Made by a program: the position numbers and the translations under genes | Source of the DNA: Streptomyces coeruleorubidus | GTDB taxonomy: Bacteria > Actinomycetota > Actinomycetes > Streptomycetales > Streptomycetaceae | DNA length: 64,000 nucleotides | NCBI RefSeq assembly: GCF_008705135.1 | Contig: NZ_CP023694.1 | Location: 4,135,001 to 4,199,000 of the forward strand | Reading direction: 5' to 3' | Notes under the pieces: model-generated | What the model was told of the DNA's origin: nothing | Seen by the model: only the letters and a program-made list of their open reading frames with translations | The model's database searches: none | In this document: positions 14,768-63,780 of the stretch, in pieces | Numbering within the stretch: position 1 is the stretch's first letter | Layout: each line of letters starts with the position of its first letter

Positions 14768-15607
14768 TCAGCGGAGCCGGTCGACGTACTGGTCCGTTCC
14801 CGGCACCGTCGGGACGAAGGGCGCGACCAGCTCCACCCGCCCGAGCCCTGATTCGCCGACCGCGGTGTCCAGGCCGGTGAAGAAGGCGTCCCAGCACTCG
14901 CGCGGGTCCGCCTGGAGGAACCACAGCAGGGTCAGCCGGGTGTCGACGCCCTCGACCTGCTTGACGTAGGTCATGCGGTCGCCGGGCAGCGGGGTCGGCC
15001 GGAAGACGGTCACCATCGCCGCCGGGGAGCCCGCGAGCCGCTTGGGCAGGTGGCGGGAGCGCAGCCACTCCAGCAGCTGCGGGCGCTGCTCGGGTGCGCC
15101 GGCCTCGACGACCTGGAGGACCAGGCCTGCGTAGGGGTGGTCGAGGGCGTGGACGTCGCGCGGTCCGGCCGCCCCGTCCCGGTAGACCGTCGCCTCGTGG
15201 TCCTGGAAGGCCGTGAGGACGTGGGTGCGGTCGTGGTAGACGCGGCCGTCGCGGTTGAGGCGCTTGTTGATGGCGACCGTCCAGCGCATGTGGTCGTCGT
15301 AGCGGCCGGCGGTGATCCAGTACGTGGAGAGGTAGCAGCCCGTGGTGACGGGCTGGGCGACCGCCGACTTCTCGGGGTAGCGCAGGAGTTGCAGGTCCCG
15401 GGTCGCCACCCAGCGGCGGCCGGCGTACATCCAGGGCATGGCCATCGCGCCGGCGTAGTAGTGGTCGTCCTCGTACCAGCGGTTGTAGGCGTACTCGTGG
15501 CCCGGGTGCGGTTCGACCATGGTGATCAGGGCGTGGCCGGGGTGGGTGCCGTAGGGGCCGACGGCGGCCAGTTCGGCGTACAGCTCGCTGCGGGTGTCGT
15601 CGCTCAT
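14768..15607 (-). CDS. hypothetical protein, possible dimeric alpha-beta barrel, in catabolic context
   Basis: ATG 15607 gives 279 residues (MSDDTRSELYAELAAVGPYG). The chain contains HALITMVEPHPGHEYAYNRWYEDDHYYAGAM-type sequence near residues 25-55, which recalls EthD-like barrels, where a short alpha/beta unit ends in a Tyr-x-x-Trp-Tyr-x-x-x-H motif. A second similar unit may lie near 200-270 (YVKQVEGVDTRLTLLWFLQ). Function is unknown. It diverges from an SDR across a TCTGACG-N3-CGTCAGA palindrome, the element also found before the 49-55 kb and 60-64 kb catabolic operons, so it is probably an enzyme or accessory of the same pathway. Confidence 0.6.
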   Translation of the reverse strand: MSDDTRSELYAELAAVGPYGTHPGHALITMVEPHPGHEYAYNRWYEDDHYYAGAMAMPWMYAGRRWVATRDLQLLRYPEKSAVAQPVTTGCYLSTYWITAGRYDDHMRWTVAINKRLNRDGRVYHDRTHVLTAFQDHEATVYRDGAAGPRDVHALDHPYAGLVLQVVEAGAPEQRPQLLEWLRSRHLPKRLAGSPAAMVTVFRPTPLPGDRMTYVKQVEGVDTRLTLLWFLQADPRECWDAFFTGLDTAVGESGLGRVELVAPFVPTVPGTDQYVDRLR

Positions 15608-15639: not shown

Positions 15640-15656
15640 TCTGACGCTCCGTCAGA
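15640..15656. promoter_or_regulatory. palindromic operator TCTGACG-N3-CGTCAGA (site 1)
   Basis: Perfect 7-3-7 palindrome between the divergent 279-residue protein gene and the SDR gene, 30 bp before the SDR start. It is identical in its arms to the site at 52062. Confidence 0.7.
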
Positions 15657-15685: not shown

Positions 15686-16471
15686 ATGTCGCTGCTCGCG
15701 GGGAAGACGGTCGTCGTGTCGGGGGTCGGGGCCGGGCTGGGGCGGCAGGTGGCGGCGGCCGTCGTACGGGACGGCGGCCGGGCCGTGCTCGGGGCCCGTA
15801 CCGAGGCGAACCTGGCGAAGACGGCCGCCGAGCTGGATCCGGACGGGTCGCGCACGGCGTACCGGGCGACCGACATCACCGACGAGGGGCAGTGCGAGGC
15901 GCTGGCGGGGCTGGCGCGGGAGCGGTTCGGGCGGATCGACGCGGTGGTGCATGTGGCGGCGCTGGACGGCCACTTCGGCGGCCTGGAGGACGCGGACTTC
16001 GAGGCCTGGCACTCGGTCCTGGACGTGAATCTGCTGGGCACGCTGCGGATGACCCGGGTCTGCCTGCCGTCGCTCAAACAAGGCGGCGGGTCCGTCGTGT
16101 TCATCGGGACACAGTCGGCGGCGGCCGCTCCCTCGCAGGTGCGGCAGGCGGCGTACGCGGCGTCGAAGGGGGCGCTGACGAGCGCGATGTACTCGCTGGC
16201 GCGGGAACTGGGGCCGTACCGGATCCGGGTCAACACCGTGCTGCCGGGCTGGATGTGGGGCCCGCCGGTGCAGGCGTACGTACGGTTCACCGCCGGCCGG
16301 GAGGGCGTGTCGGAGGCGGAGGTGCTGGGCAGGCTGACGGGTCGTACGGCACTGCCGGAGCTGGCGACGGACGCGGACGTGGCGGACGCGACGGTGTTCC
16401 TGGCGTCGGACCGGGCGCGGGCGATCACGGGCCAGTCGCTGCTGGTGAACGCGGGTGAGCTGATGCGCTGA
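15686..16471 (+). CDS. SDR-family oxidoreductase
   Basis: ATG 15686 follows GGGGAGG (15674-15680) and gives 261 residues. A classical short-chain dehydrogenase layout is seen: the cofactor site VVVSGVGAGLGRQVAAAV (about residues 8-25), acidic/Arg residues GARTEANL after beta-2, VHVAALDGHFGG in place of the usual NNAG, and the catalytic IGTQSAAAAPSQVRQAAYAASKGAL stretch whose YAASK carries the Tyr and Lys. PGW-type residues (LPGWMWGPP) follow. The altered NNAG motif (VHVAA) marks a divergent subgroup. It oxidises or reduces an unidentified alcohol or ketone; the shared palindrome suggests regulation with other catabolic operons. Confidence 0.85.
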   Translation: MSLLAGKTVVVSGVGAGLGRQVAAAVVRDGGRAVLGARTEANLAKTAAELDPDGSRTAYRATDITDEGQCEALAGLARERFGRIDAVVHVAALDGHFGGLEDADFEAWHSVLDVNLLGTLRMTRVCLPSLKQGGGSVVFIGTQSAAAAPSQVRQAAYAASKGALTSAMYSLARELGPYRIRVNTVLPGWMWGPPVQAYVRFTAGREGVSEAEVLGRLTGRTALPELATDADVADATVFLASDRARAITGQSLLVNAGELMR

Positions 16472-47236: not shown

Positions 47237-47629
47237 ATGTCCCGTGTCGCCGACCTGAGGTTCCGCGCCGCCACGTCCTTCCAGCGCCGCGTCAACCCGA
47301 TCGTGCGCCGCCTCCCCCTCCAGACCGTCCTGGAGACGAAGGGCCGCGTCTCGGGCCTGCCCCGCCGCACCCCGGTGGGCGGCCGCCGCGTCGGCGACTC
47401 CTTCTGGCTGGTGTCGGAGTTCGGCGAACGGTCGCAGTACGTGCGCAACATCAAGGCCGATCCGCGGGTGCGGGTGCGGATCCGGGGGCGGTGGCACACG
47501 GGGACCGCACACCTGCTGCCGGACGACGACCCGGTGGCGCGACTGCGGCGGCTGCCCAAGGTCAACGGTCTGGGGGTGCGGGCGTTCGGGACGGACCTGC
47601 TGACGGTGCGGGTGGATCTGGCCGGCTGA
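47237..47629 (+). CDS. deazaflavin-dependent nitroreductase family protein
   Basis: ATG 47237 behind GAAGGAG gives 130 residues (MSRVADLRFRAATSFQRRVN). The split beta-barrel family signature is LETKGRVSGLPRRTPVGGRR, then GDSFWLVSEFGERSQYVRNI and WHTGTAHLLPDDD. Family members use F420 to reduce nitro or quinone substrates, or act as quinone reductases. Three LLM-type enzymes and fbiC nearby support F420 supply. It converges on the aldehyde dehydrogenase with 21 bp between stops. Confidence 0.85.
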   Translation: MSRVADLRFRAATSFQRRVNPIVRRLPLQTVLETKGRVSGLPRRTPVGGRRVGDSFWLVSEFGERSQYVRNIKADPRVRVRIRGRWHTGTAHLLPDDDPVARLRRLPKVNGLGVRAFGTDLLTVRVDLAG

Positions 47630-47650: not shown

Positions 47651-49102
47651 TCAGCCCGGCCACACGATCGCCTGCACCTCGCTGTACGCGTGCAGGGCGT
47701 ACGAGCCGACGTCCCTGCCGACGCCGCTCTTCTTGAAGCCGCCGAAGGGGGCCTCCATGTTGCGGCCCACGGTGTTGATCCCGACACCGCCCGCCCGCAG
47801 GCGCCGCGCCACCCGGAAGGCCCTGGCCACGTCGGACGACCAGACGTAGTCGATGAGGCCGTAGTCGGTGTCGTTGGCCAGGGCCACGCCCTCCTCCTCG
47901 TCGTCGAAGGGGATGACGGCCACCACCGGGCCGAAGATCTCCTCGCGGGCCACGCGCATATCGTTGGTGCAGTCGCCGAGGAGGGTCGGGGTGACGTAGA
48001 AGCCGGTCGGCAGGGAGGGGCGTTGGCCGCCGGTGACGACCACCGCGCCTTCCTTCCGGCCCAGTTCGACATACGACTCGACCCGGTCCCGGTGGGCCGC
48101 CGAGATCACCGGCCCGACCACCGTGTCCGGCTCCCGGGGGTCCCCCACCTTCAACCGGGCCGCGTACTCGGCCAGTTGCCCGACCAGGCGGTCGTAGATC
48201 CCGCGCTGCGCCAGCACCCGGGTCGGTGCCGTGCAGATCTGGCCGCTGTAGAAGGAGAAGGTGGTGCCGATGCCGGACAAGGCCGAGCCGATGTCGGCGT
48301 CGTCGAGGACGACCGCCGCGCCTTTGCCGCCGAGCTCCATCAACTGCCGTTTCATGTCGCGCCCGCACACCTCGGCGATGCGCTGCCCGACCGCCGTGGA
48401 GCCGGTGAAGCTGACCATGTCGACGTCCGGTGAGGCCACGGCCGCCTCACCGACCTCTGTCCGTGCACCGCTGACCACGTTCACCACGCCGGGCGGCACA
48501 CCGGCGGCCTCCAGCGCCTGAGCCATCCGGTAGACCGACAGCGGATCCTGGGGTGCCGGCTTCACCACGACCGTGTTGCCCATCGCCAGAGCGGGGGCGA
48601 TCTTGCCCGCCGGGTTTGCCCAGGGGTTGTTGTACGAGGTGATGCAGGTGACGACACCGACGGGCTGGCGGACGGCGAGTGCGCCCATGACGCCCGCCCG
48701 CCCCATCGGCCCGGCCTCGTTGATCTGCGGCGGGATCGCCCACTCGGCGGGCTCCACGCGCGCGTAGCGCCGGAAGCGGGCGGCGGCGACGCCGACCTGC
48801 ATGCCGCGTGCGGTACCGGTGGTCGCGCCGGTCTCCGCCCGGGCCAGCTCGGCGTACGGCACGAGACGGTCCCGGATGATGTCCGCGGCGCGGGCGAGCA
48901 TCGCGGCCCGCTCCTCCGCGGGCGTTGCCGACCACGGCCCGAAGGCCTCGCGGGCCGCGGCGCAGGCAGCGTGCACCTGATCCCGCGAGGCCTCCGGCGC
49001 CCACCCGACGGTCTGCTCGGTCGCCGGGTCGATCACCTCGTAGTGGCCGCCGTCCGGCTCCACCCAGGAGCCGCCGACGAACAGCGGCTGCCGTGCCGTC
49101 AC
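47651..49102 (-). CDS. aldehyde dehydrogenase
   Basis: GTG 49102 overlaps the stop of the amidohydrolase (GTGA), giving 483 residues. The NAD-binding fold starts with VVTCITSYNNPWANPAGKIA and VVVKPAPQDPLSVYRMAQAL. Catalytic residues are seen: Glu in RQLMELGGKGAAVVLDDADI and Cys in FSFYSGQICTAPTRVLAQRG. EEIFGPVVAVIPFDDEEEGV and PFGGFKKSGVGRDVG close the family pattern. It oxidises an aldehyde of the pathway served by the LLM oxidoreductase and amidohydrolase upstream. It is the last gene of a leftward operon controlled by sites at 52062 and 52123. Confidence 0.95.
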   Translation of the reverse strand: MTARQPLFVGGSWVEPDGGHYEVIDPATEQTVGWAPEASRDQVHAACAAAREAFGPWSATPAEERAAMLARAADIIRDRLVPYAELARAETGATTGTARGMQVGVAAARFRRYARVEPAEWAIPPQINEAGPMGRAGVMGALAVRQPVGVVTCITSYNNPWANPAGKIAPALAMGNTVVVKPAPQDPLSVYRMAQALEAAGVPPGVVNVVSGARTEVGEAAVASPDVDMVSFTGSTAVGQRIAEVCGRDMKRQLMELGGKGAAVVLDDADIGSALSGIGTTFSFYSGQICTAPTRVLAQRGIYDRLVGQLAEYAARLKVGDPREPDTVVGPVISAAHRDRVESYVELGRKEGAVVVTGGQRPSLPTGFYVTPTLLGDCTNDMRVAREEIFGPVVAVIPFDDEEEGVALANDTDYGLIDYVWSSDVARAFRVARRLRAGGVGINTVGRNMEAPFGGFKKSGVGRDVGSYALHAYSEVQAIVWPG

Positions 49103-50829
49103 CTCGTGCTCACCGTCTCCGTGTCCCGGCCCGAGCGCAGCACCCGGCCCGGTACGGCGCCGGTCACCACGTCGTCCCGGATCGCCTCGACCCCGTTGAC
49201 CCACACGGCGCGCACGCCCAGTGCCCGGGAGTCCAGCCGCGGGCTGTCACCCGGCAGGTCGTGCACCAGGGTGGCCGGGCCCGCGTCGATCCGCTCCGGG
49301 TCGAACAGGACGAGGTCCGCATGCCAGCCCTCCCGCACCTGCCCCCGCTCCCGCAGGCCGAAGAGCCGGGCCGGGTCGTCGGTCAGCATCTTCACGGCCT
49401 GCTCCACACCGACCAGCTTCCGGCCCCGCAGACAGTCCCCGAGGAACCGGGTCGTGTACGGCGCCCCGCACATCCGGTCCAGATGCGCACCCGCGTCGGA
49501 CCCGCCGAGCAGCACGTCCTCGTGCTGCCAGGTCTCCGCCCGCAGCGCCCAGGACGCCGGGTCGTTGTCGGGCGGCATCGGCCACAACACCGTGCGCAAC
49601 TCGTCGTTGGCGCAGATCTCCACCAGGCACGCGAAGGGCTCCTGGCCGCGCTCCTCGGCGATGTCCTCGACCACCCGCCCGGTCAGCCCGGCGTTCGCCT
49701 CGCTGTAGGTGTCGCCGATGACGTACCGCCCGAAGTTCGCCAGCCGCCGGAAGACGCCCGCCTCCTTGGACCGGGCGCGCCGCAGCATCCCGTCCCGTAC
49801 GTCCGGGTCGCGCAGCTTCTCGATCCGCTCGGGCACGGGCAGGCCGAGAATCGGCCCCCACCCGGGGATGAGGTTGAGCGCGCAGAAAGTCCCCAGCGAC
49901 ATGTTCATCGGCGTGAGGATCGGCATGGTCAGCGCAACGACCCGGCCGCCCGACTTCCTTGCCTGCTCGCTCGCCAGGAGCTGCCGGGGCACCCGCTCGG
50001 GCACGCCCGCGTCGATGGTCAGGACGTTCCAGTTCAGCGGCCGCCCCGCCGCCGCGCTCATCTCGGCGAACAGGTCGATCTCCGCGTCGCTGAACTGATC
50101 CAGACAGCCCGCGACGATCGCCTCGATCTGCGTGCCCTCGTGCTCTCCGACGGCCCGCGACAGCGCCAGCAGCTCGGCCGGCCCGGCGTGCCGGGAGGCG
50201 ACCGGCTTCCCGTCGCCGTCGGAGTGGCTGGTCGACTGGGTGGTGGACAGCCCCCAGGCCCCGGCGTCCATGGCCTCCCGCAACAGCCGGACCATCGCCG
50301 CCAGTTGCTCCCCGGTCGGCTGCCCGCCGATGGCCTGCGGCCCCATCACGTACCGCCGCAGCGCACAGTGCCCCACCATGAACCCGGCGTTGACGGCGAT
50401 CCGCCCCTCCAGGGCGTCCAGGTACTCCCCGAAGGAATGCCAGGTCCAGGGCGCCCCCTCCTCCAGCGCCACCAGCGCCATGCCCTCGACCTTCGACATC
50501 ATCCGCCGCGTGTAGTCGGCGTCCTCGGGCCGGTCCGGGTGCAGCGGAGCGAGGGTGAACCCGCAGTTCCCCCCGGCGACGGTGGTGACCCCGTGGTTGA
50601 GGGAGGGCGTGGCGTACGGATCCCAGAAGAGCTGGGCGTCGTAGTGGGTGTGGGGGTCGACGAAGCCGGGGGCGAGGACGAGGCCGTGCGCGTCCTCGCT
50701 TGTGCGCGCTTCTTGAGCGACCTCACCGATGACGGCGATCCGCCCGTCCTGGATGCCGACGTCGGCGACACGGCCGGGCCCACCGGTCCCGTCGACGACG
50801 GTCGCCCCCTTGATGACGTGATCGAGCAT
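49099..50829 (-). CDS. D-aminoacylase-like amidohydrolase
   Basis: ATG 50829 behind GAGGAG gives 576 residues; GTG 50835 is an alternative. The amidohydrolase fold opens with IKGATVVDGTGGPGRVADVG, and the metal motif APGFVDPHTHYDAQLFWDP has HxH near residues 63-65. GVTTVAGGNCGFTLAP follows. LLGGSDAGAHLDRMCGAP late in the chain provides the Asp. These enzymes deacylate N-acyl-D-amino acids or act on other cyclic amides. It is the second gene of the LLM/amidohydrolase/aldehyde dehydrogenase operon, where it may open a ring or amide; the substrate is not known. Confidence 0.88.
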   Translation of the reverse strand: MLDHVIKGATVVDGTGGPGRVADVGIQDGRIAVIGEVAQEARTSEDAHGLVLAPGFVDPHTHYDAQLFWDPYATPSLNHGVTTVAGGNCGFTLAPLHPDRPEDADYTRRMMSKVEGMALVALEEGAPWTWHSFGEYLDALEGRIAVNAGFMVGHCALRRYVMGPQAIGGQPTGEQLAAMVRLLREAMDAGAWGLSTTQSTSHSDGDGKPVASRHAGPAELLALSRAVGEHEGTQIEAIVAGCLDQFSDAEIDLFAEMSAAAGRPLNWNVLTIDAGVPERVPRQLLASEQARKSGGRVVALTMPILTPMNMSLGTFCALNLIPGWGPILGLPVPERIEKLRDPDVRDGMLRRARSKEAGVFRRLANFGRYVIGDTYSEANAGLTGRVVEDIAEERGQEPFACLVEICANDELRTVLWPMPPDNDPASWALRAETWQHEDVLLGGSDAGAHLDRMCGAPYTTRFLGDCLRGRKLVGVEQAVKMLTDDPARLFGLRERGQVREGWHADLVLFDPERIDAGPATLVHDLPGDSPRLDSRALGVRAVWVNGVEAIRDDVVTGAVPGRVLRSGRDTETVSTR

Positions 50830-50917
50830 GAGCACTCAACTCCTCGAGCTGCATGTCCCTCAGGGGCGCGGGGAACTGCGCGACCAGCCCCCACACACCC
50901 GCACCCGCCAACGGCGA

Positions 50918-52036
50918 TCAAACACCCCTACGGAACCGCGAAGTCCGATGCACAGGATCCGTATCGATCTTCGGAATCACGTGCTCCCCGACCAGCCGAA
51001 TCGTCTGCAGGGTCTCGTCCTTCGGCACCCCCACCGGCAGCCCGAAACTCAGCTGGTCCGCCCCCGCCTGCTCCCACCGCTTGCACTGCGTGAGCACCTC
51101 GTCCGGATCGCCGCAGATCAGCAGCTCCTCCTCGATGAGGACCTCCACGAGCTCCTCGGTGTACTCCGGCAGCGTCTCCGGCCACACCGGAAACCCCTCG
51201 GGCCGGGGAAACGTGTCGTGGTACCGGAACACCAGCGACGGCAGATAGTGCAGCTGCCCGTTCGCCGCGATCCGCACCGCCTCCTCGTGCGTCGGCGCAC
51301 AGATCGCCGTCGTCGTCACCATCACGTTGTCGTTGACGAAGTCACCGACCGGCTCGGCGTCCACGATCGCCGTCTTGTACTGCTCCAGCACCCACTCCAT
51401 GTCGGAGACCTTCTGCACGCTGAAGCCGAGCACCCCGAGCCCCTTCTGCGCGGCCATGGCGTACGACGGAGGCGACCCGGCCGCGTACCACATCGCCGGG
51501 TGCGAGCCGCCGTACGGCTTCGGCAGGACCTTCCTCGGCGGCAGCGACCAGTGTTTGCCCTGGAAGCCGGCGTACTCGTCCTGGAGCCACATCTTGGGGA
51601 ACTCGGCGATGGTCTCTTCCCAGATCTCCTTGGTGTGGTTCATGTCGGTCACCCCCGGCATGAAGCCCAGGATCTCGTGCGAGCCGGCACCCCGCCCGCT
51701 GCCGAACTCGAACCGTCCCTTGCTGAGATGGTCGAGCATGGCGACCTTCTCGGCGACCTTCACGGGGTGGTTGACCGGGGCGAGCGGGTTGAAGATGCCC
51801 GAGCCGAGGTGGATCCGCTCCGTGGCGTGGGCGAGATACCCGAGGAAGACGTCGTTGGCGGACAGGTGCGAGTACTCATCCAGGAAGTGGTGCTCGGAGG
51901 CCCAGGCGTACTTGAAGCCGGACTTGTCCGCCTGGATGACGTACTCGGTCTCCTCCATCAGCGCCTTGTGCTCGGCGAGCGGGTCGGTTTCAGCCCGTTT
52001 GCCCACGTATCCCTGTACGAAGACCCCGAATTCCAA
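50918..52036 (-). CDS. LLM-class flavin-dependent oxidoreductase
   Basis: This 372-residue protein (MEFGVFVQGYVGKRAETDPL) has the luciferase-like barrel with YAWASEHHFLDEYSHLSAND, IHLGSGIFNPLAPVNHPVKV and LDHLSKGRFEFGSGRGAGSH. It is longer than F420 enzymes such as the one at 38236 and more like monooxygenases that open rings or oxidise C-H bonds. It begins a leftward operon 26 bp after a perfect operator, followed by an amidohydrolase and an aldehyde dehydrogenase. The substrate is unknown. Confidence 0.9.
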   Translation of the reverse strand: MEFGVFVQGYVGKRAETDPLAEHKALMEETEYVIQADKSGFKYAWASEHHFLDEYSHLSANDVFLGYLAHATERIHLGSGIFNPLAPVNHPVKVAEKVAMLDHLSKGRFEFGSGRGAGSHEILGFMPGVTDMNHTKEIWEETIAEFPKMWLQDEYAGFQGKHWSLPPRKVLPKPYGGSHPAMWYAAGSPPSYAMAAQKGLGVLGFSVQKVSDMEWVLEQYKTAIVDAEPVGDFVNDNVMVTTTAICAPTHEEAVRIAANGQLHYLPSLVFRYHDTFPRPEGFPVWPETLPEYTEELVEVLIEEELLICGDPDEVLTQCKRWEQAGADQLSFGLPVGVPKDETLQTIRLVGEHVIPKIDTDPVHRTSRFRRGV

Positions 52037-52061
52037 GGAGATTCACCGCCCCACGGTTATT

Positions 52062-52078
52062 TCTGACGAGCCGTCAGA
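52062..52078. promoter_or_regulatory. palindromic operator TCTGACG-N3-CGTCAGA (site 2)
   Basis: Perfect 7-3-7 palindrome 26 bp upstream of the LLM-oxidoreductase start; arms are identical to those of site 1. Confidence 0.7.
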
Positions 52079-52122
52079 TGGATGGCTCCGACTGTTCCAC
52101 CGCTCCTCGGGAGCGTCAATAG

Positions 52123-52137
52123 CTGACGGTTCGTCAG
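52123..52137. promoter_or_regulatory. palindromic operator CTGACG-N3-CGTCAG (site 3)
   Basis: Perfect 6-3-6 palindrome between the end of the SDR gene and the LLM-oxidoreductase gene, 45 bp upstream of site 2. The two sites are 61 bp apart from start to start, close to six helical turns. Confidence 0.65.
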
Positions 52138-52148
52138 GTAGTGGCGGA

Positions 52149-52919
52149 TCAGATGACGCTCACTCCCGCCAGCCACCCGCCGTCGATCACGAACGGCTGC
52201 CCGGTGATGTAGGAGGAGTCGTCGCACGACAGGAACAGGGCGAGCCGCGCCACCTCCTCCGGCTGCCCGACCCGCCCCAGCGGCACGAGCTTGCGGTACA
52301 GCCGGTCGAGCCCCCTGGCGCTCTCCTCCGGGTCGGCGTCCGGGTCCAGCCGGGCCGGGTTGGACATCGCGGTGTCGATGGCGCCCGGGCAGACGGCGTT
52401 GACGCGTATCCCCCGCCCGGCCAGCTCCAGCGCGGCCACCCGGGTCAGACCGACCACGGCGTGCTTGCTCGCCGCGTACGCGCCCACCCCCGCCATTCCG
52501 GTCAGGCCGGTGTACGAGGCGGTGTTGACGATCGTGCCCCCCTCGGCCAGCTCCGGGGCGACGGCCCTGATGCCGAGGAAGCAGCCCACCTGGTTGACCT
52601 GGACGACCCGCATGAACTCGTCGAGGGGCGTGTCGAGGAGGGAGTCGAAGCGGAGGATTCCGGCGTTGTTGACGAGCCCGTCGACCCGGCCGTACGCGTC
52701 CTTGGCCGCGGCGACGGCCGCCTCCCAGTCGTCCTCCCGGCCGACGTCGAGATGGACGTACCTGGCACCGATCTCCTTCGCGAGGGCCTCGCCCTGGTCG
52801 TCGAGGACATCCGCGACGACCACCCGGGCGCCCTCGGCCGTGAACAGCCGGGCCTCCTGCTCGCCCTGGCCGCGCGCGGCGCCGGTGATGATGACGACCC
52901 GTCCGTCGAGCTTGCCCAT
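52149..52919 (-). CDS. SDR-family oxidoreductase, hydroxysteroid dehydrogenase-like
   Basis: ATG 52919 behind GAGGAG gives 256 residues; GTG 52931 overlaps the previous stop. The NAD site is GRVVIITGAARGQGEQEARL, Asp after beta-2 lies in VVVADVLDDQGEALAKEIGA, NNAG is present (VDGLVNNAGILRFDSLLDTP), and the catalytic set is NTASYTG...YAASK. SSYITGQPFVIDGGWLAG closes the chain. It resembles 3-alpha/20-beta hydroxysteroid dehydrogenases in layout and motifs. It ends an operon with an LLM oxidoreductase and an amidohydrolase. NAD specificity is likely from the Asp. Confidence 0.92.
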   Translation of the reverse strand: MGKLDGRVVIITGAARGQGEQEARLFTAEGARVVVADVLDDQGEALAKEIGARYVHLDVGREDDWEAAVAAAKDAYGRVDGLVNNAGILRFDSLLDTPLDEFMRVVQVNQVGCFLGIRAVAPELAEGGTIVNTASYTGLTGMAGVGAYAASKHAVVGLTRVAALELAGRGIRVNAVCPGAIDTAMSNPARLDPDADPEESARGLDRLYRKLVPLGRVGQPEEVARLALFLSCDDSSYITGQPFVIDGGWLAGVSVI

Positions 52920-52927
52920 GGTTCTCC

Positions 52928-53848
52928 TCACAGCTGTGGGGCGACCTCGGCGCCGAACGCCGCGATCTGGTCGGTGAGCTCGGTGCGGTCCCGGCTGCGG
53001 AACCGCACCTGGATCTGGTCCACGCCCATCGCGCGGTACGCCCGCAGCGATTCGGCGAGCTCCTGCGGACCACCGGTGAGGGTCCGGCGGCCGACGTCCC
53101 AGCGGGGCGCTCCGACGTACAGCGGTTCGGCGATGGCGCCCACGGTGAACGGCCCTGATGCCCCCGCCCGTTCGCGCAGTTCCCGGATCCGCGCGATCTG
53201 CGCGGGCAGCCGGTCCCTGGGATCGCCCTGCGGCAGCCAGCCGTCGCCCTTGAGCGCGGCCCGTCGCAGGGCGGCCGGCGAGGACCCGCCGACCCAGAGG
53301 GGGACCCGGTCCTGCGCCGGGCGCGGCCGCTGCCCGAGCCCTTCGAAGTCGTACAGCTTGCCGTGGTGTTCGGGGAACTCGTCCGGCCCGAGGGCGGCGC
53401 GCAGGGCGTCGATCGACTCGTCCAGCACGGCCCCGCGCCGCTCGAAGTCGGCCCCCAGCACCTCGAACTCCTCGCGCACATGCCCGGCCCCGACCCCGAG
53501 GACCAGCCGGCCGCCCGACAGGTGGTCGAGGGTGGCGTACTGCTTGGCGCTGAGCAGCGGATGCCGCAGTCCCACGACGGCGACGTGGCTGAGCAGCCGG
53601 GTCCGCTCGGTGGCCGCCGCGAGGAAGGCGAGGGTGGCCACCGGGTCGTACCAGACCGTGCTCATCGCGGACGCGAGGCGGCGCGGGATGGCGATGTGGT
53701 CGCAGCTCGCCAGGTAGGCGAACCCGGCGCGGTCGGCGGCGCGGGCGACGGCGAGCAGGTCCTCGGGCCCGGCGGCGGCTTCCCAGGGCTCGGTGTAGAG
53801 GGTGCTCTGGGACTGGACCGGGAGCTGGATCCCGTAGGCCAGGCTCAC
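52928..53848 (-). CDS. LLM-class oxidoreductase, F420-type
   Basis: GTG 53848 overlaps the stop of the amidohydrolase (GTGA), giving 306 residues. Luciferase-like pattern: FAYLASCDHIAIPRRLASAM, LLSHVAVVGLRHPLLSAKQY and LDHLSGGRLVLGVGAGHVRE, with EEFEVLGADFERRGAVLDES after. This is the F420-dependent subgroup, similar in size to the enzyme at 38236. It lies between an amidohydrolase and an SDR in one operon, translationally coupled to both neighbours. Confidence 0.9.
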   Translation of the reverse strand: MSLAYGIQLPVQSQSTLYTEPWEAAAGPEDLLAVARAADRAGFAYLASCDHIAIPRRLASAMSTVWYDPVATLAFLAAATERTRLLSHVAVVGLRHPLLSAKQYATLDHLSGGRLVLGVGAGHVREEFEVLGADFERRGAVLDESIDALRAALGPDEFPEHHGKLYDFEGLGQRPRPAQDRVPLWVGGSSPAALRRAALKGDGWLPQGDPRDRLPAQIARIRELRERAGASGPFTVGAIAEPLYVGAPRWDVGRRTLTGGPQELAESLRAYRAMGVDQIQVRFRSRDRTELTDQIAAFGAEVAPQL

Positions 53849-55080
53849 CGCGTCCCGTCCCAGAGCCCGTCGTCGCTCAGCCCCAGCAGCTCGATCGCGT
53901 TCCGCCGCACGATGCGCTCCACCACCTCGGGCTCCAGGTGCCCCATCTGCGCCTCGCCGACCTCGCGGGACTTGGGCCAGGTGCTGTCGGAGTGGGGGTA
54001 GTCGGTCTCGTAGAGGACGTTGTTCAGGCCGATCGCGTCCAGGTTGCGCAGCCCGAAGGCGTCGTCGAAGAAGCAGCCGTAGACGTGCTCGGCGAACAGC
54101 TCGGACGGCGGCCGGTGCACCTTGTCGGCGACGCCGCCCCAGCCGCGGTTCTCCTCCCACACGACGTCGGCCCGCTCCAGGATGTAGGGGATCCAGCCGA
54201 TCTGCCCCTCGGCGTACATGACCTTGAGGTTCGGGAACTGCTCGAACTTGCCGCTCATCAGCCAGTCGACCATCGAGAAGCAGCAGTTGGCGAAGGTGAT
54301 GGTGGAGCCGACGGCGGGCGGGGCGTCGGCGGAGGTGGAGGGCATCCGGCTGCTGCTGCCGATGTGCATGGCGACGACCGTGCCGGTCTCGTCGCACGCC
54401 GCGAGGAAGGGGTCCCAGTCGTCGGTGTGGATGGAGGGGAGCCCGAGGTACGGCGGGATCTCGGAGAAGGCGACGGCACGGACACCGCGTGCGGCGTTCC
54501 GCCGGACCTCCTCGGCGGCCAGCTCGGGGTCCCAGAGGGGGATCAGGGTGAGCGGGATGAGCCGCCCGTGCGCCTCGGGGCCGCACCACTCCTCCACCAT
54601 CCAGTCGTTGTAGGCACGGACGCAGAGCAGACCCAGCTCGTGGTCCTTCGCCTCGGTGAAGGTCTGGCCGCAGAAACGCGGGAACGTCGGGAAGCAGAGG
54701 GCGGACTGGACATGGTTGACGTCCATGTCGGCGAGCCGGGCCGGGACGTCGTAGGAACCGGGCCGCATCTGCTCGTAGGTGATGACCTCCAGGCGTATCT
54801 CGTCCCTGTCATACCCGACGGCGGTGTCGAGGCGGGTGAGGGGCCTGCGGAGGTCCTCGTAGACCCACCAGTCACCGACGGGACCGTCGTCGCCGGGCGC
54901 GCCCATGACCGGCTTGAAGCGCCCTCCGAGGAACGTCATCTCCTTGACGGGCGCACGGACGATCCGGGGGCCGGCGCCCCGGTACTTCTCCGGGAGCCGG
55001 TCCTGCCAGACGGTCGCGGGCTCCACCGTGTGGTCGTCCACGGAGATGATCAGCGGAAACGTGCTCGCGTGGGTGTCCAT
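53845..55080 (-). CDS. amidohydrolase-2 family protein (decarboxylase/hydrolase type)
   Basis: ATG 55080 gives 411 residues; GTG 55089 is possible. It starts MDTHASTFPLIISVDDHTVE, where the metal motif is SVDDH instead of HxH as in many actinobacterial members of this family. Further residues are RLADMDVNHVQSALCFPTFP, VVAMHIGSSSRMPSTSADAP and NVLYETDYPHSDSTWPKSRE, the last with the terminal Asp. Family members include ACMSD-type decarboxylases. The promoter palindrome (site 4) ends 22 bp upstream, so the transcript leader must be very short. Function in a ring-degrading pathway is inferred. Confidence 0.87.
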   Translation of the reverse strand: MDTHASTFPLIISVDDHTVEPATVWQDRLPEKYRGAGPRIVRAPVKEMTFLGGRFKPVMGAPGDDGPVGDWWVYEDLRRPLTRLDTAVGYDRDEIRLEVITYEQMRPGSYDVPARLADMDVNHVQSALCFPTFPRFCGQTFTEAKDHELGLLCVRAYNDWMVEEWCGPEAHGRLIPLTLIPLWDPELAAEEVRRNAARGVRAVAFSEIPPYLGLPSIHTDDWDPFLAACDETGTVVAMHIGSSSRMPSTSADAPPAVGSTITFANCCFSMVDWLMSGKFEQFPNLKVMYAEGQIGWIPYILERADVVWEENRGWGGVADKVHRPPSELFAEHVYGCFFDDAFGLRNLDAIGLNNVLYETDYPHSDSTWPKSREVGEAQMGHLEPEVVERIVRRNAIELLGLSDDGLWDGTR

Positions 55081-55101: not shown

Positions 55102-55116
55102 CTGACGGTGCGTCAG
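55102..55116. promoter_or_regulatory. palindromic operator CTGACG-N3-CGTCAG (site 4)
   Basis: Perfect 6-3-6 palindrome 22 bp upstream of the amidohydrolase start that opens the 52-55 kb operon. It also lies within the region upstream of afsR. Confidence 0.65.
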
Positions 55117-58803: not shown

Positions 58804-59199
58804 CTACACCGGAACGACCTTCACACCCGGCCCGCAGAGCTTTCCCATGTCGTCCTCGTCGGACGTGAAGAGCACCACGCCTCCGGGCTGCCGGCCCGCG
58901 ATGACGGCCAGGGCCGCGTCGATGGCGTACTCGTGGCCGTGCAGGCCCGTGTCCTGGAGCAGGACGACGGCGGCGTCGGCGACCTCGCGCGTCACGGGCT
59001 CCACCACGACACGCGACATCGCCCACGCCCAGGCGGCACGCTGTACCCGGCCGTGATACGCCTCGATCAGCGTCATGGAGCTGGTCACGACGCGGATGCC
59101 GGAGCGATGGGCGTCCTTCAGCCGCGCGAGCATCGCCCGGTCACCCAGCACGGCGCGCGACAGCGCCTCGCAGTCCAGCACATAGCAGGACGGCCGCAT
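58804..59199 (-). CDS. PIN-domain protein, putative VapC-type toxin
   Basis: ATG 59199 overlaps the antitoxin stop by one base (TGATG), giving 131 residues. PIN-type acidic residues are present: Asp in YVLDCEALSRAVLGDRAMLA near the start, Glu in SMTLIEAYHGRVQRA, and Asp in HEYAIDAALAVIAGRQPGGV with TSDEDDMGKL near the end. These would bind Mg2+ for RNA cleavage. Paired with a short ribbon-helix-helix type antitoxin gene upstream. Confidence 0.83.
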   Translation of the reverse strand: MRPSCYVLDCEALSRAVLGDRAMLARLKDAHRSGIRVVTSSMTLIEAYHGRVQRAAWAWAMSRVVVEPVTREVADAAVVLLQDTGLHGHEYAIDAALAVIAGRQPGGVVLFTSDEDDMGKLCGPGVKVVPV

Positions 59200-59581: not shown

Positions 59582-60508
59582 ATGCCCGGTGAGCAACCGC
59601 AGACGTACGAGACCCTCGACGAGCGATTCCGCACCGGCCGGTGCCAGGCAGGGGACTCGCGGCTGGAGACGTTGTTCGAGGGGTGCCGGTGGGCCGAGGG
59701 GCCGGTGTACGTGCCGGCCGGACGGTATCTGCTGTGGAGCGACATCCCGAACGACCGGCTGCTGCGGTGGGACGAGACCACCGGGTCCGTCGGGGTGTTC
59801 CGCTCGCCCGCCGGGTATCCCAACGGCAACACCCTGGACGGCCAGGGCCGGCTCATCACCTGCGAGCAGGGCAACCGGCGGGTGACCCGGACCGAGCACG
59901 ACGGCTCGGTCACCGTGATCGCCGAGCGGTTCCGGGGGAAGCGGCTCAACAGCCCGAACGACGCCGTCGTGAGGTCGGACGGGTCGGTGTGGTTCTCCGA
60001 TCCCGAGTTCGGGATCGCGACCGACTACGAGGGGCACCGCGCGGAGAGCGAGATCGGCGCCCGGAACGTGTACCGGGTGGACCCCGGCAACGGCGAGGTA
60101 CGTGTGGCCGCCGAGGGCTTCCAGGGTCCGAACGGGCTGGTGTTCTCCCCCGACGAGCGCAAGCTGTACGTGTCGGACAGCCTGGCCAACCACATCCGCG
60201 TCTTCGACGTCCGGCCGAACGGCACCCTGTCCGGCGGTGATGTCTTCGCCGAGTGCCGGAACGGCAACTTCGACAACATCCGGTTCGACGACGAGGGACG
60301 TCTGTGGGCCGCCGCCCTGCACGGCGGCGTGCACTGTTACGACCCCGACGGCACGCTCCTCGGCCGCGTCCTGGTGCCCGGCACCGTCGCCAACATCCGG
60401 TTCGGCGGCGCCCGGCGCAACCGGATGTTCATCGCCGCCGACAGCACCCTCTACTCCCTCGTCATGTCCGTCACCGGGACCCCGCCGCTGCCGTCGGTCA
60501 GCCGCTGA
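59582..60508 (+). CDS. SMP-30/gluconolactonase family protein
   Basis: ATG 59582 gives 308 residues (MPGEQPQTYETLDERFRTGR). Six-bladed propeller motifs: CRWAEGPVYVPAGRYLLWSD with the metal Glu, NGNTLDGQGRLITCEQGNRR, LNSPNDAVVRSDGSVWFSDP with the Asn-Asp pair, and GPNGLVFSPDERKLYVSDSL with the metal Asn/Asp. Such enzymes hydrolyse lactones. Its 3' end overlaps the convergent acyl-CoA ligase by 11 bp. The role of a lactonase in a ring-degrading pathway is reasonable but not shown. Confidence 0.9.
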   Translation: MPGEQPQTYETLDERFRTGRCQAGDSRLETLFEGCRWAEGPVYVPAGRYLLWSDIPNDRLLRWDETTGSVGVFRSPAGYPNGNTLDGQGRLITCEQGNRRVTRTEHDGSVTVIAERFRGKRLNSPNDAVVRSDGSVWFSDPEFGIATDYEGHRAESEIGARNVYRVDPGNGEVRVAAEGFQGPNGLVFSPDERKLYVSDSLANHIRVFDVRPNGTLSGGDVFAECRNGNFDNIRFDDEGRLWAAALHGGVHCYDPDGTLLGRVLVPGTVANIRFGGARRNRMFIAADSTLYSLVMSVTGTPPLPSVSR

Positions 60509-62108
60509 GGAGGCCGTCCCGCAGCGCCCCCTTGACGACCTTTCCGCTCGCGTTGCGGGGCAGCTCCGCCACGAACTCCACCGTCCTCGGGACCTTGTAG
60601 TTGGCCATCTCCCTGCGGGACCAGGCGATCAGGTCGTCCGCCGTCACGAGAGCGCCCGGCCGCCGCACGACGTACGCCCTGCCGACCTCGCCCAGCCGGG
60701 CGTCGGGGACGCCGATCACCGCCACGTCCGCCACGTCCGGGTGCAGGCCCAGGAGTTGCTCTATCTCCGCGGGGTAGGCGTTGAAGCCGCCGACGATGAA
60801 CATGTCCTTGAGGCGGTCGGTGATGCGCAGGTTGCCCGCGGCGTCCAGGACGCCGACGTCGCCCGTGCGCAGCCAGCCGTCCTCGGACAGCACCTCGGCG
60901 GTGGCCGCCTCGTCCTCGTAGTAGCCGGTCATGACGTTGAAGCCGCGGACCAGGACCTCGCCCGGGGTGCCGGGCGCCAGGGGCTCGCCCCGGGAGTTCA
61001 CAACCCGTACCTCCGTGCCGGGGATCGCGCGGCCCGACGTCGAGGCGATCACCGTCGGGTCGTCGCCGCGCCGGCACATCGTGACGACGCCGCCCGCTTC
61101 GGAGAGGCCGTAGGCCGTCAGGACCGTGCCGACGCCGAGTTCCCCGCGCAGCCGCTCGACGAGTCGCAGCGGCACCACCGCCGCTCCCGTCACCACGAGG
61201 CGCAGTGCCGACAGGTCGTGCGCGTCCCGCGCCGGGTGGTCCAGGAGGGACTGGAGGAGGGTCGGCGGGCCGGGGAGCACGGAGACGCGTTCCGCCGCGA
61301 TGTTGGCCAGGACCGTGTTCACGTTGAACACCGGCTGGGGGATCATCGTCGCGCCCCGCGTCAGGCAGGCGATCACCCCGGCCTTGTAGCCGAAGGTGTG
61401 GAAGAACGGGTTGACGATGAGGTAGCGGTCGCCCCGGGTCAGGCCCGCCAGGTCGCTCCAGATGCCGTACGCCCGCAGCGTCTGGGCATGGGTGATGACC
61501 GCGCCCTTCGGGCGGCCCGTCGTGCCCGAGGTGAAGATGAGGTCCGAGGGCCGGGAGCCGTCGACCGCGTCCGCCCTCGCCCGCACCTGCGCCGTCCCGA
61601 CCGCCTCTCCGCTCGCGAGGAAGTCCTTCCAGGTGAGGAAGTCCGCCGGGGCGTCCTCCGAGAGGACCACCACCTGCTCCAGGGCCGGCAGGCCGGGCAG
61701 TGGTCCGGAGCCCGGGCCCTGCCCCGCCGCTCTGCGCAGCGACGCCACGTACGACGTGCCGAGGAACGTGCCCGTCACGAACAGCAGCCGCGCCCCGCTG
61801 CGGCGCAGGACGTCCGCCGCCTCCGCGCCCTTGAACCGGGTGTTCAACGGCACGAGCACCGCACCCGCGGAGACCGCACCCAGGGCGCTGACGATCCAGT
61901 CGAGGGTGTTCGGCGCCCAGATGCCGACCCGGTCGCCCGGCCGGATGCCGTGCGCCAGGCAGGCCGCCGCCGCGCGCTCCACGCGGGCGCCCAGCTCCGC
62001 GTAGGTGATCCGGGTGCGGCCCTCGACGACCGCCTCGGCGTCCGCGTACCGCTCGGCCGCCGTCCGCACCAGGCCCGGGATGCTTCCCCACTCCGTATCC
62101 GCTCGCAC
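60498..62108 (-). CDS. FadD3-like acyl-CoA ligase (AMP-forming)
   Basis: GTG 62108 behind GGGAGG gives 536 residues. ANL motifs are clear: the ATP site DLIFTSGTTGRPKGAVITHA (about residues 189-208), LTAYGLSEAGGVVTMCRRGD, WLRTGDVGVLDAAGNLRITD, and ELPRNASGKVVKGALRDGLL with the catalytic Lys. DRYLIVNPFFHTFGYKAGVI and VLPGPPTLLQSLLDHPARD match FadD3-type ligases, which in mycobacteria activate a steroid-ring remnant acid. Substrate here is unknown. It diverges from the thiolase operon across two palindromic sites. Confidence 0.92.
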   Translation of the reverse strand: MRADTEWGSIPGLVRTAAERYADAEAVVEGRTRITYAELGARVERAAAACLAHGIRPGDRVGIWAPNTLDWIVSALGAVSAGAVLVPLNTRFKGAEAADVLRRSGARLLFVTGTFLGTSYVASLRRAAGQGPGSGPLPGLPALEQVVVLSEDAPADFLTWKDFLASGEAVGTAQVRARADAVDGSRPSDLIFTSGTTGRPKGAVITHAQTLRAYGIWSDLAGLTRGDRYLIVNPFFHTFGYKAGVIACLTRGATMIPQPVFNVNTVLANIAAERVSVLPGPPTLLQSLLDHPARDAHDLSALRLVVTGAAVVPLRLVERLRGELGVGTVLTAYGLSEAGGVVTMCRRGDDPTVIASTSGRAIPGTEVRVVNSRGEPLAPGTPGEVLVRGFNVMTGYYEDEAATAEVLSEDGWLRTGDVGVLDAAGNLRITDRLKDMFIVGGFNAYPAEIEQLLGLHPDVADVAVIGVPDARLGEVGRAYVVRRPGALVTADDLIAWSRREMANYKVPRTVEFVAELPRNASGKVVKGALRDGLLSG

Positions 62109-62133: not shown

Positions 62134-62148
62134 CTGACTACCCGTCAG
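62134..62148. promoter_or_regulatory. palindromic operator CTGAC-N5-GTCAG (site 5)
   Basis: CTGACTACCCGTCAG, 25 bp upstream of the acyl-CoA ligase start. It has the same outer half-sites as the 15-bp elements at 52123 and 55102. Confidence 0.65.
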
Positions 62149-62160
62149 ATTATCGGTAAC

Positions 62161-62175
62161 CTGACGACCTGTCAG
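62161..62175. promoter_or_regulatory. palindromic operator CTGAC-N5-GTCAG (site 6)
   Basis: CTGACGACCTGTCAG, 27 bp after site 5 and 29 bp before the thiolase-family start, so the pair of sites covers both divergent promoters. Confidence 0.65.
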
Positions 62176-62204: not shown

Positions 62205-63365
62205 ATGGCAGCAGGATCGGGCGGCCTCAAGGACGCCACCGCCATCGTCGGCATAGGCCAGACGCCCTTCGCCAAGCGGCTCCCCGAGGACGAGCGCACC
62301 CTCGCCTGCCGTGCCGTCCTGGCCGCCCTCGACGACGCCGGCATCGCGCCCGGCGAGGTCGACGCCCTCGCCTCCTACACGATGGAGGAGACGGACGAGG
62401 TCGAGCTGGCGAAGGCCTGCGGCTTCGGGGACCTCACCTTCTTCAGCAAGGTCGGCTACGGAGGCGGCGGTTCGTGTGCCACCGTCGCCCATCTCGCCGC
62501 CGCCGTCGCCACCGGGCAGGCGAACGTCGGGGTCGCCTGGCGGTCGCGCAAGCGGGGCAGCGGCCCCCGGCCGTGGACCAGCACCGCCGTCCAGCTGCCG
62601 ACCCCGGCCCAGTGGACCCGGCCGTTCGGGCTGCTCAGGCCGGTCGACGAGATCGCCATGCTCGCCCGCCGCTACATGCACGAGTACGGGGCCACCCGCG
62701 ATCACCTGTTCAACGTGGCCCTGGCCTGCCGGAACCGCGCCAACCAGAACCCCGCCGCGATCATGTACGACCGGCCCCTCACCCGCGAGATGTACATGAC
62801 GTCCCGCTGGATCAGCGAGCCCCTGTGCCTCTTCGACAACTGCCTGGAGACGGACGGGGCGCTGGCCTGTGTCGTCGTCTCCGCCGAGCGCGCCCGCGAC
62901 TGCCGCCGGAAACCCGTCTACGTCCATTCCGCCGCCCAGTCGCTCCCCGCCCAGCACCACGGCATGGTCAACTACTGGAACGACGACCCCCTCACCGGAC
63001 CGGCCTGGACCGCCGCCCGGCACCTGTGGAAGCACTCCGACCTGACGCCCCAGGACGTGGACGTCGCGCAGATCTATGACGCCTTCACGCCCCTGGTCCT
63101 GCTGTCCCTGGAGGGCTACGGCTTCTGCGAGCGGGGCGAGGGCGGGGCGTTCACCGAGGGCGGGGCGCTGGAGATCGGCGGGACGCTGCCCGTGAACACC
63201 GGCGGGGGCGGACTGTCTGAGGCCTATGTGCACGGCTTCAACCTCGTCAACGAAGGGGTGAAGCAGTTGCGCGGGACCAGCACCGCGCAGGTGCCGGACG
63301 CGTCGGCCTGCCTGGTCACGGCGGGTGAAGGAGTGCCCACCTCCGCCCTTCTGCTGAGGAGTTGA
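62205..63365 (+). CDS. thiolase-family protein (lipid-transfer/SCP-x type)
   Basis: ATG 62205 follows GGAGG and gives 386 residues. Thiolase fold landmarks are ATAIVGIGQTPFAKRLPEDE, GYGGGGSCATVAHLAAAVAT, RPLTREMYMTSRWISEPLCL and the C-terminal NTGGGGLSEAYVHGFNLVNE. The usual thiolase nucleophile Cys region is replaced (GGGSCATVAH), as in SCP-x/lipid-transfer-type proteins, which include steroid side-chain aldolases paired with a DUF35 partner. It is followed 1 bp later by such a DUF35 gene. It likely cleaves a carbon-carbon bond of an acyl-CoA. Confidence 0.9.
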   Translation: MAAGSGGLKDATAIVGIGQTPFAKRLPEDERTLACRAVLAALDDAGIAPGEVDALASYTMEETDEVELAKACGFGDLTFFSKVGYGGGGSCATVAHLAAAVATGQANVGVAWRSRKRGSGPRPWTSTAVQLPTPAQWTRPFGLLRPVDEIAMLARRYMHEYGATRDHLFNVALACRNRANQNPAAIMYDRPLTREMYMTSRWISEPLCLFDNCLETDGALACVVVSAERARDCRRKPVYVHSAAQSLPAQHHGMVNYWNDDPLTGPAWTAARHLWKHSDLTPQDVDVAQIYDAFTPLVLLSLEGYGFCERGEGGAFTEGGALEIGGTLPVNTGGGGLSEAYVHGFNLVNEGVKQLRGTSTAQVPDASACLVTAGEGVPTSALLLRS

Positions 63366-63366
63366 G

Positions 63367-63780
63367 ATGCTGCGTCCGGTCACCGACACCGACGGCGCGC
63401 CCTTCTGGGAGTACACAGCCCGGGGCGAGCTCCGCGTCCAGGCCTGCGCCGGCTGCGGTGAGTTCCGCTTCCCGCCCCGGCCCTGCTGCCCGCACTGCCA
63501 GTCCTTCGAGGCCGAGTGGCGCCGGGTGTCCGGCCGGGGCCGCGTCTGGTCGTACGTCGTCCCGCACCCGCCGCTGCTGCCCGGCTATGCCGAGCTGGCG
63601 CCGTACAACGTGGTCGTCGTCGAGCTCGACGAGGCGCCGCGCATCCGGCTCGTCGGCAACCTCGTCGCCGGGCCCGGCGAGCCGGTCAACTCCCTTGCCA
63701 CGGACCGCCTCCGGATCGGCACCCGGGTGCGGGCCGTCTTCGACGACGGGCTTCCCCGGTGGGTTCCGGAGCGGTCATGA
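63367..63780 (+). CDS. DUF35 OB-fold/zinc-ribbon partner protein
   Basis: This 137-residue protein (MLRPVTDTDGAPFWEYTARG) starts 1 bp after the thiolase-family stop. A rubredoxin-like zinc ribbon is seen: VQACAGCGEFRFPPRPCCPH then CQSFEAEWRRVSGRG, with Cys pairs CAGC and CPHC. An OB fold follows (GRVWSYVVPHPPLLPGYAEL, then VVVVELDEAPRIRLVGNLVA). Such proteins bind and activate SCP-x/lipid-transfer-type partners, forming aldolase or hydratase complexes. It overlaps the next gene by ATGA. Confidence 0.92.
   Translation: MLRPVTDTDGAPFWEYTARGELRVQACAGCGEFRFPPRPCCPHCQSFEAEWRRVSGRGRVWSYVVPHPPLLPGYAELAPYNVVVVELDEAPRIRLVGNLVAGPGEPVNSLATDRLRIGTRVRAVFDDGLPRWVPERS

Follow-up and report, generated by a model that had tools for sequence, protein, structure and literature searches.

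The stretch of DNA analyzed (hereafter, the window) comprises 64,000 nucleotides, namely, positions 4135001–4199000 of the 9.34-Mb contig NZ_CP023694.1 of Streptomyces coeruleorubidus, and contains two adjacent operons, A (genes A1, A2, and A3) and B (genes B1, B2, and B3), which lie behind copies of one palindrome, CTGACGNNNCGTCAG. All six open reading frames (ORFs) ascribed to these operons in the initial annotation were found complete on the minus strand at the same coordinates (Table 1); the start of A3 is more likely the ATG located 8 bp beyond A2, and the TTG start of B1 was backed by its relatives (TTG in 66 and GTG in 14 of the 80 loci described below). Translational coupling had been proposed for several junctions and held for two of the four: GTGA overlaps were present at A1/A2 and B2/B3, whereas A2/A3 and B1/B2 were separated by gaps, the latter of about 80 bp. 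The view that both operons encode the same enzyme types was not borne out, as their amidohydrolases belong to different Pfam families, their LLM-class oxidoreductases to different subfamilies, and the short-chain dehydrogenase (SDR) and aldehyde dehydrogenase are unrelated; because of these differences, a reading as two parallel pathways with the same enzymes was rejected. A2 cleared the TIGR03619 cut-off, its use of F420 being predicted from the family alone, and B1 fell below the cut-off in each of the 25 NCBIfam matches listed. Nor do A and B form two stand-alone pathways; one operator heads about ten operons, among them A, B, and those with FadD3-, FadE30-, and Ltp2-like genes.

Table 1. 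Features of operons A and B and of other genes and sites considered (window coordinates unless stated otherwise; palindrome, CTGACGNNNCGTCAG)
Feature	Position	Strand	Basis or remark
A1, PF04909 "amidohydrolase", predicted dinuclear oxygenase (DitZ/PtmU3 type)	53845..55080	-	Pfam, PDB matches, fold
A2, LLM-class oxidoreductase, TIGR03619, predicted F420-dependent	52928..53848	-	239 bits, cut-off 166.9
A3, short-chain dehydrogenase (SDR)	52149..52919	-	Family scans; ATG start in 78/78 loci aligned at residue 1
B1, LLM-class oxidoreductase, unnamed subfamily, TTG start	50918..52036	-	Family scans, start conservation
B2, PF07969 protein, D-aminoacylase fold, altered metal site	49099..50835	-	Pfam, alignment, model
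B3, aldehyde dehydrogenase	47651..49102	-	Family scans
Palindrome (predicted operator) before A1	55102..55116	.	Exact
Palindrome (predicted operator) before B1, start-proximal	52063..52077	.	Exact
Palindrome (predicted operator) before B1, start-distal, directly after the A3 stop	52123..52137	.	Exact
Palindrome pair (62134, 62161), divergent FadD3/Ltp2 promoter region	62134..62175	.	Site scan; 1 mismatch each
Palindrome between divergent 14768-15607 and 15686-16471	15641..15655	.	Exact
TetR gene with PF19352 C-terminal domain	contig 4204751-4205386 (L016:9751-10386)		~15 kb away
FadD3-family acyl-CoA ligase (FadD1), predicted HIP-type acyl-CoA synthetase	60498..62108	-	NF005801 792.6 bits, cut-off 657; 51.5% to presumed FadD3 of reference cluster
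Ltp2-type thiolase-fold protein, predicted retro-aldolase	62205..63365	+	6ok1, E 2.7e-100; NF005892 584 bits, cut-off 469
ChsH2-type zinc ribbon/OB (DUF35) partner	63367..63780	+	Family scan
Protein without Pfam match	14768..15607	-	Relatives found close to the same regulon genes in distant genomes
SDR behind the 15641 palindrome	15686..16471	+	Family scan
F420H2-dependent quinone reductase family protein	47237..47629	+	PF04075 112 bits; convergent with operon B

The shared palindrome noticed earlier ahead of both operons was confirmed, with one exact copy before A1 and two between A3 and B1. At two mismatches, the number of sites in the window was near chance (13 observed against 9.0 expected); therefore, exact and one-mismatch sites were used throughout, with the exception of the TetR start comparison given below, and on these sites the possibility that the palindrome is a chance pattern was dismissed. 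The genome contained 18 exact copies and 128 with no more than one mismatch, against 0 and 23, respectively, for the reversed control pattern. Seven of the 18 exact sites fell within 4.150–4.237 Mb, and between the window start and 4.25 Mb there were 17 sites with at most one mismatch, 15 of which were upstream of a gene; of the other two, a one-mismatch copy at 13023 fell within a coding ORF and the copy at L017:18763 (L and G numbers denote loci and genomes) fell at the 3' edge of another. Two more exact sites elsewhere in the genome preceded a DUF35-thiolase pair and an LLM gene. The SDR gene at 2.91 Mb was rejected as a target, the exact site lying at its 3' end and not upstream.

The comparison of gene order across Streptomyces proposed in the initial annotation was made in the best 80 of 558 B1 relatives, all titled Streptomyces save one "Actinobacteria bacterium" record; these loci, picked by B1 similarity and mutually related, are neither an unbiased Streptomyces sample nor independent. 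A3, B1, B2, and B3 were present in all 80; A1 was missing from nine, seven of which were truncated by a contig end, and A2 was inverted in L048. An exact site was found in the 300 bp ahead of A1 in every one of the 68 loci where that stretch was present, and B1 was preceded by a site with at most one mismatch in 80/80 loci (exact in 68). The sites also followed the separation of the genes. Thus, A2 had its own site in 9/9 loci when other genes split it from A1 and in 1/62 when the two were tight (Fisher 1e-10), and A3 had one in 28/31 loci when split from A2 and in 1/43 when tight (Fisher 6e-16). Altogether, 318 sites with at most one mismatch were found in the 80 loci, whereas a single first-order Markov draw yielded six; 267 of these 318 were within 300 bp upstream of A1, A2, A3, or B1. 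A lack of co-conservation or co-regulation, which would have spoken against the proposal, is contradicted at the sequence level by these loci and site counts, and the assignment of A and B to a shared regulon is well supported by the sequence data.

The palindrome is very probably the operator of the TetR protein encoded about 15 kb away (Table 1), judging from its distribution among 296 genomes of the phylum, in which a TetR relative was called at an E-value of 1e-25. The 20 TetR-positive genomes contained 8.85 exact sites on average (range 0–20), against 0.31 in the 276 TetR-negative ones (Mann–Whitney 3.6e-20; 2.2e-11 with the own genus left out), a comparison uncorrected for genome size and base composition, which differ among genomes. 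Nine of the 11 exact sites of G226 clustered within 2.622–2.693 Mb around its TetR gene, and exact or near sites adjoined the TetR gene or its operon in G134, G226, and G025. A two-mismatch palindrome overlapped the presumed TetR start codon in eight of nine Streptomyces, G246 being the one without it. Among 20 hand-chosen loci of other genera (52–67% identity to A1 or B2), a site was found within 300 bp of the gene in 9/14 with TetR in the genome and in 0/6 without it (Fisher 0.014). A PDB profile search with the TetR sequence matched EthR-like and other TetR DNA-binding domains. KstR2 was rejected as the regulator of A and B, as the regulon TetR had no BLAST match (E-value 1e-5) to the presumed KstR2; a separate KstR2-like TetR (50%) is located in the Ipd cluster of the own genome. 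Two TetR-negative genomes contained five or more exact sites, namely, G162 (seven) and G100 (five), where a more distant regulator may read an operator of the CTGACGNNNCGTCAG type.

A1 had been called an amidohydrolase, and it does belong to PF04909; however, it is closest to dinuclear-metal monooxygenases, its best PDB matches being DitZ (E-value 2.3e-57; about 30% identity) and PtmU3 (2.2e-38; about 24%). DitZ is known here from its PDB title and its R. rhodochrous source alone, and no paper on it was found in the literature searched. PtmU3 has been described as a nonheme diiron hydroxylase accepting coenzyme A (CoA)-ligated diterpenoid substrates (PMC7782822), and, together with AibH2 and SfbO, it has been placed among the amidohydrolase-related dinuclear oxygenases, or ARO enzymes (PMC10811679). 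With metal-ligand positions taken from PMC7782822, residues D15, H17, H239, E291, D360, H363, and D365 of A1 correspond to the six metal ligands of AibH2 plus an additional acidic residue that, according to that paper, marks binuclear sites. The first two positions were kept in 106 of 107 alignment rows (one row was gapped) and the other five in 107/107, the rows being mostly close kin (76 of 105 unique relatives at least 80% identical). The AlphaFold model of A1 (mean pLDDT 85.7, 17 sequences) aligned with DitZ at TM 0.81 and with PtmU3 at TM 0.74. Thus, A1 shares the PF04909 fold and all metal positions with PtmU3, DitZ, AibH2, and SfbO (PMC10811679, PMC10401708, PMC7782822), and it differs from them in its setting, being accompanied by genes for a CoA ligase, Ltp2, and the HIP pathway, with no neighboring Rieske protein seen. 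An adjacent Rieske ferredoxin co-occurs with AibH2-like members at 90% (PMC10401708); no such ferredoxin was found among those regulon genes that were scanned and annotated. The Pfam name of A1 would suggest a mononuclear metal hydrolase or decarboxylase of the ordinary kind, a reading that is improbable. PF04909 does include many such enzymes, the fold search also matched ACMSD and other decarboxylases, and 4dzi, a PF04909 structure titled only "amidohydrolase", has all seven positions (with Glu for the last), so the motif is no proof of oxygenase activity; nevertheless, the conservation of the ligand positions together with the binuclear-marking residue, and DitZ and PtmU3 as the closest structures, argue against this reading. 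A1 is likely, from sequence and model, an amidohydrolase-related dinuclear oxygenase.

Of the HIP pathway, by which steroid rings C and D are degraded, the own genome contained a FadD3-family ligase and an echA20-ipdABC operon at 2.502–2.505 Mb with FadA6-, IpdF-, FadE-, and KstR2-like neighbors. Identities to the reference cluster (genome G074, gene names assigned by us from gene order and a table in PMC5380842) were 55% for the FadE30-like protein, 60% for IpdF, 67% for FadA6, 69% for IpdC, 56% for IpdA, 52% for IpdB, and 50% for the KstR2-like protein; EchA20 was compared with a distant-genome copy and not with this cluster (68%). In other genomes, CTGACGNNNCGTCAG preceded an echA20-ipdA-ipdB-ipdC-like operon (exact in G226 and G025, one mismatch in G134) or, in G294, an exact copy stood ahead of ipdA-ipdB-ipdC. 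Proteins of the A1 and B2 types (at least 50% identity) occurred together in 14 of the 296 genomes, all of which contained IpdA (Fisher 6e-17). The TetR was accompanied by IpdA in 11/11 genomes outside the genus and in 18/20 overall, and seven of nine sampled Streptomyces carry IpdA, A1, B2, and TetR together. Compared with the KstR/KstR2 regulons and the HIP pathway of mycobacteria and rhodococci (PMC5380842), common features are the FadD3, FadE30, IpdA/B/C, EchA20, FadA6, IpdF, and Ltp2-type genes, TetR repressors with palindromic operators, and CoA-ester chemistry, whereas the Streptomyces regulon has the operator CTGACGNNNCGTCAG, a TetR without a match to the presumed KstR2, added ARO-type proteins and several LLM enzymes, and, in the own genome, no KshA or HsaC match. 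On this basis, we favor, with moderate confidence, the reading that a single TetR regulon includes both operons and oxidizes a polycyclic acid of the steroid or terpenoid type in the direction of the HIP pathway. Support for the regulon itself is strong, and an oxygenase role of A1 is likely; the assignments of substrate and of B-operon chemistry are tentative.

Besides the 4dzi match and the failure to see a Rieske ferredoxin among the annotated regulon genes, several findings weigh against this reading. Nine of the genome's 18 exact sites had no convincing link to a pathway gene, and at least five of these nine fell inside predicted ORFs or at their ends; one was that at the SDR 3' end, and one (4654145) precedes a 139-aa ORF. 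The own echA20-ipdABC operon stands behind another palindrome (ACCTAACAAACGTTTGGTGG-like), beside its own KstR2-like TetR. When the A1 and B2 types were called at an E-value of 1e-60, three (G031, G091, and G188) of the 21 genomes with both had no IpdA; the 50% criterion, in turn, mixes A1 with its paralogue ARO2, the counted protein being nearer ARO2 in G284, G102, and G263. Two Streptomyces, G171 and G246, retain the TetR, with 4 and 15 exact sites, respectively, but have neither A1, B2, nor IpdA, and therefore the TetR serves other targets too; conversely, G166 and G263 have the A1 type, the B2 type, and IpdA without the TetR. G171 and G246 and the three genomes at 1e-60, as well as the lack of a close characterized PDB relative for any B-operon reaction, lend some weight to the idea that the two operons belong to a pathway of another kind, for lactams, amides, or cyclic ketones, which only has a broad lipid-type repressor in common with the HIP genes. 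We consider this unlikely, as IpdA accompanied the two types in every genome at 50% identity and, of the three genomes with one type only, was present in two (G096 and G050) and missing from one (G091). Of the proposed catabolic role in opening a ring or an amide, the first part, ring attack, is supported by the regulon context; nothing was found for the lactam or amide idea, and there is support for a substrate of the steroid or terpenoid type.

The ACCTAACAAACGTTTGGTGG-like palindrome, two copies of which were observed at the own Ipd cluster (L245:13990–14030, L246:1–25; one of them weaker), was also found at the Ipd cluster of two other Streptomyces and is probably the operator of the local KstR2-like TetR. 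Since the own Ipd cluster stands behind a different palindrome, control of the two gene sets in Streptomyces appears to be split between two TetR regulators. By analogy, this would resemble the mycobacterial pathway, which is divided between KstR and KstR2.

Orthologues of KshA, HsaC, and HsaA, enzymes of the 9,10-seco route for rings A and B, were not found: the own genome had no KshA_C or HsaC match, and its best HsaA-like protein reached only 28%. Of the 27 IpdA-positive genomes, all seven of family f3 had strong KshA_C matches; in the other 20, KshA_C was absent at an E-value of 1e-20 in 15 and weaker (1e-25 to 1e-41) in five. Any HsaC match was seen in 3 of these 20 (best 47%) against 5/5 f3 controls at 74% or more, and an HsaA match in 9 of 20 (best 35%) against 5/5 controls at 75% or more, the controls being five of the seven f3 genomes. 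This lack of KshA, HsaC, and HsaA orthologues agrees with a survey in which the canonical steroid pathway was lacking in 55 of 57 Streptomyces genomes (PMC4810484). Either an unrecognized, different upper pathway or the uptake of partly degraded steroids would fit the missing seco enzymes. The same absences (KshA_C in 15 and HsaC in 17 of the 20 genomes), together with the fact that the nearest solved relatives of A1 are DitZ and PtmU3, the latter hydroxylating CoA-ligated diterpenoids (PMC7782822), leave some room for a regulon that degrades a non-steroid terpenoid, such as a diterpene resin acid or another bicyclic isoprenoid, with Ipd-like genes acting on a similar but different bicyclic acid. 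This alternative is possible, if on the doubtful side, as the FadD3, IpdC, IpdF, and FadA6 relatives are 51–69% identical to those of a cluster whose genome also has KshA and HsaC relatives.

B2 was described earlier as D-aminoacylase-like, which applies to its fold (the best fold matches of its model were D-aminoacylases and related deacylases) but not to the full set of metal ligands. Compared with D-aminoacylase (1m7j; 27% identity by structure alignment), B2 keeps HxH, Cys91, and Asp447 of the metal site, whereas no His between residues 205 and 446 was conserved at 97% or more in 112 rows, 86 of which were at least 80% identical. Two ligands of D-aminoacylase, H220 and H250, would fall in this stretch. 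A standard D-aminoacylase role was therefore rejected, and ordinary amide hydrolysis by B2 is doubtful from its sequence.

The remaining site-headed genes include the divergent FadD3/Ltp2 pair (Table 1). The Ltp2-type protein keeps the catalytic Tyr294 and Tyr344 and adjoins a DUF35 partner; it shares these features and the thiolase fold with the Ltp2-ChsH2 and Sal-Shy retro-aldolases (PMC12329534), differing by YDAF where those have YDHF. In its paralogue at L016:12267, no Tyr was visible, by our reading of the alignment, in the region aligning with Tyr344. As both aldolase tyrosines are kept, a beta-hydroxyacyl-CoA made by A1 could be the substrate of the 62205 protein. Further operons behind the palindrome encode an acyl-CoA dehydrogenase with a second thiolase, a DUF35 protein, and an ATP-grasp acyl-CoA synthetase, as well as an SDR followed by a FadE30-like dehydrogenase, a PF04199 cyclase, a second PF04909 protein (ARO2), and a second FadD. 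A site-headed HsaB-like flavin reductase scored 195.5 bits, below the HsaB cut-off of 230. The window also contains a bifunctional FO synthase, which makes the F420 precursor (35365–37950; NF006687, 1527 bits, cut-off 1018), and F420 supply is thus plausible.

The following course of events is proposed, in which we infer the order of steps and the substrate. The TetR would repress the CTGACGNNNCGTCAG promoters and be released by an intermediate that is CoA-bound or acidic, a kind of ligand suggested by other TetR repressors. FadD-type ligases would activate a polycyclic isoprenoid acid derived from a steroid or terpenoid, and its oxidation would be carried out by the dinuclear-metal monooxygenases (A1 and its paralogue ARO2), the F420- or flavin-dependent LLM enzymes (A2 and B1), the SDR (A3), and the aldehyde dehydrogenase (B3), with A1 presumably hydroxylating beta to the thioester and B2 perhaps acting as a hydrolase that opens a ring or an ester. 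The Ltp2/DUF35 retro-aldolase and acyl-CoA dehydrogenases would then cut off carbon pieces, and the remaining bicyclic unit would enter the EchA20-IpdAB (HIP) pathway. The shared operator, the co-conservation, the A1 metal-site residues, the aldolase tyrosines, and the HIP-type genes were established computationally.

No description of the operator, the TetR, or the A/B gene set was found among the papers listed from the open-license literature, which is not proof of absence. The regulon indicates a degradation route of which little is known, and one not associated with Streptomyces. It may be speculated, as a tentative extension, that many Streptomyces and members of other actinobacterial classes have a second, undescribed type of steroid-like ring breakdown, in which a bicyclic acid reaches EchA20-IpdAB without 9,10-seco enzymes, by way of CoA-ester-hydroxylating dinuclear oxygenases (A1 and ARO2), F420/LLM enzymes, and a B operon whose metal enzyme, distinct from D-aminoacylase, cleaves an activated ring. 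A1 and ARO2, both predicted to be metal enzymes that activate O2, are now annotated as hydrolases, and the ligand of the TetR would reveal the pathway substrate. HIP metabolites were reportedly formed by Streptomyces rubescens, according to the title of a 1977 article in Biochem J, and the regulon supplies candidate genes for this old biochemistry.

Several neighboring genes were also observed. A sodium:solute symporter family gene (16634–18205) downstream of the SDR behind the 15641 palindrome is a possible uptake system for the regulon. An F420-type LLM gene (38236–39090) adjoins the FO synthase, and its relatives occur near regulon genes in distant genomes. At L022:5146–6031 (contig 4654145 onwards), the exact palindrome and the 139-aa ORF are followed by a 77-aa 4Fe-4S-type ferredoxin, a possible electron donor for the regulon oxygenases; a similar ferredoxin adjoins a P450 gene near a palindrome in G226 (L228). 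No palindrome of its own was seen for the quinone reductase gene convergent with operon B. Divergent from operon A is a large SARP-type regulator (BTAD, NB-ARC, and TPR; 55298–58300); in many of the 80 loci, it stands ahead of A1. Finally, two small overlapping ORFs without a Pfam match (58804–59465) are arranged like a toxin-antitoxin pair, and their relatives (about 42% identity) sit between A2 and A3 in S. scabiei (L089).

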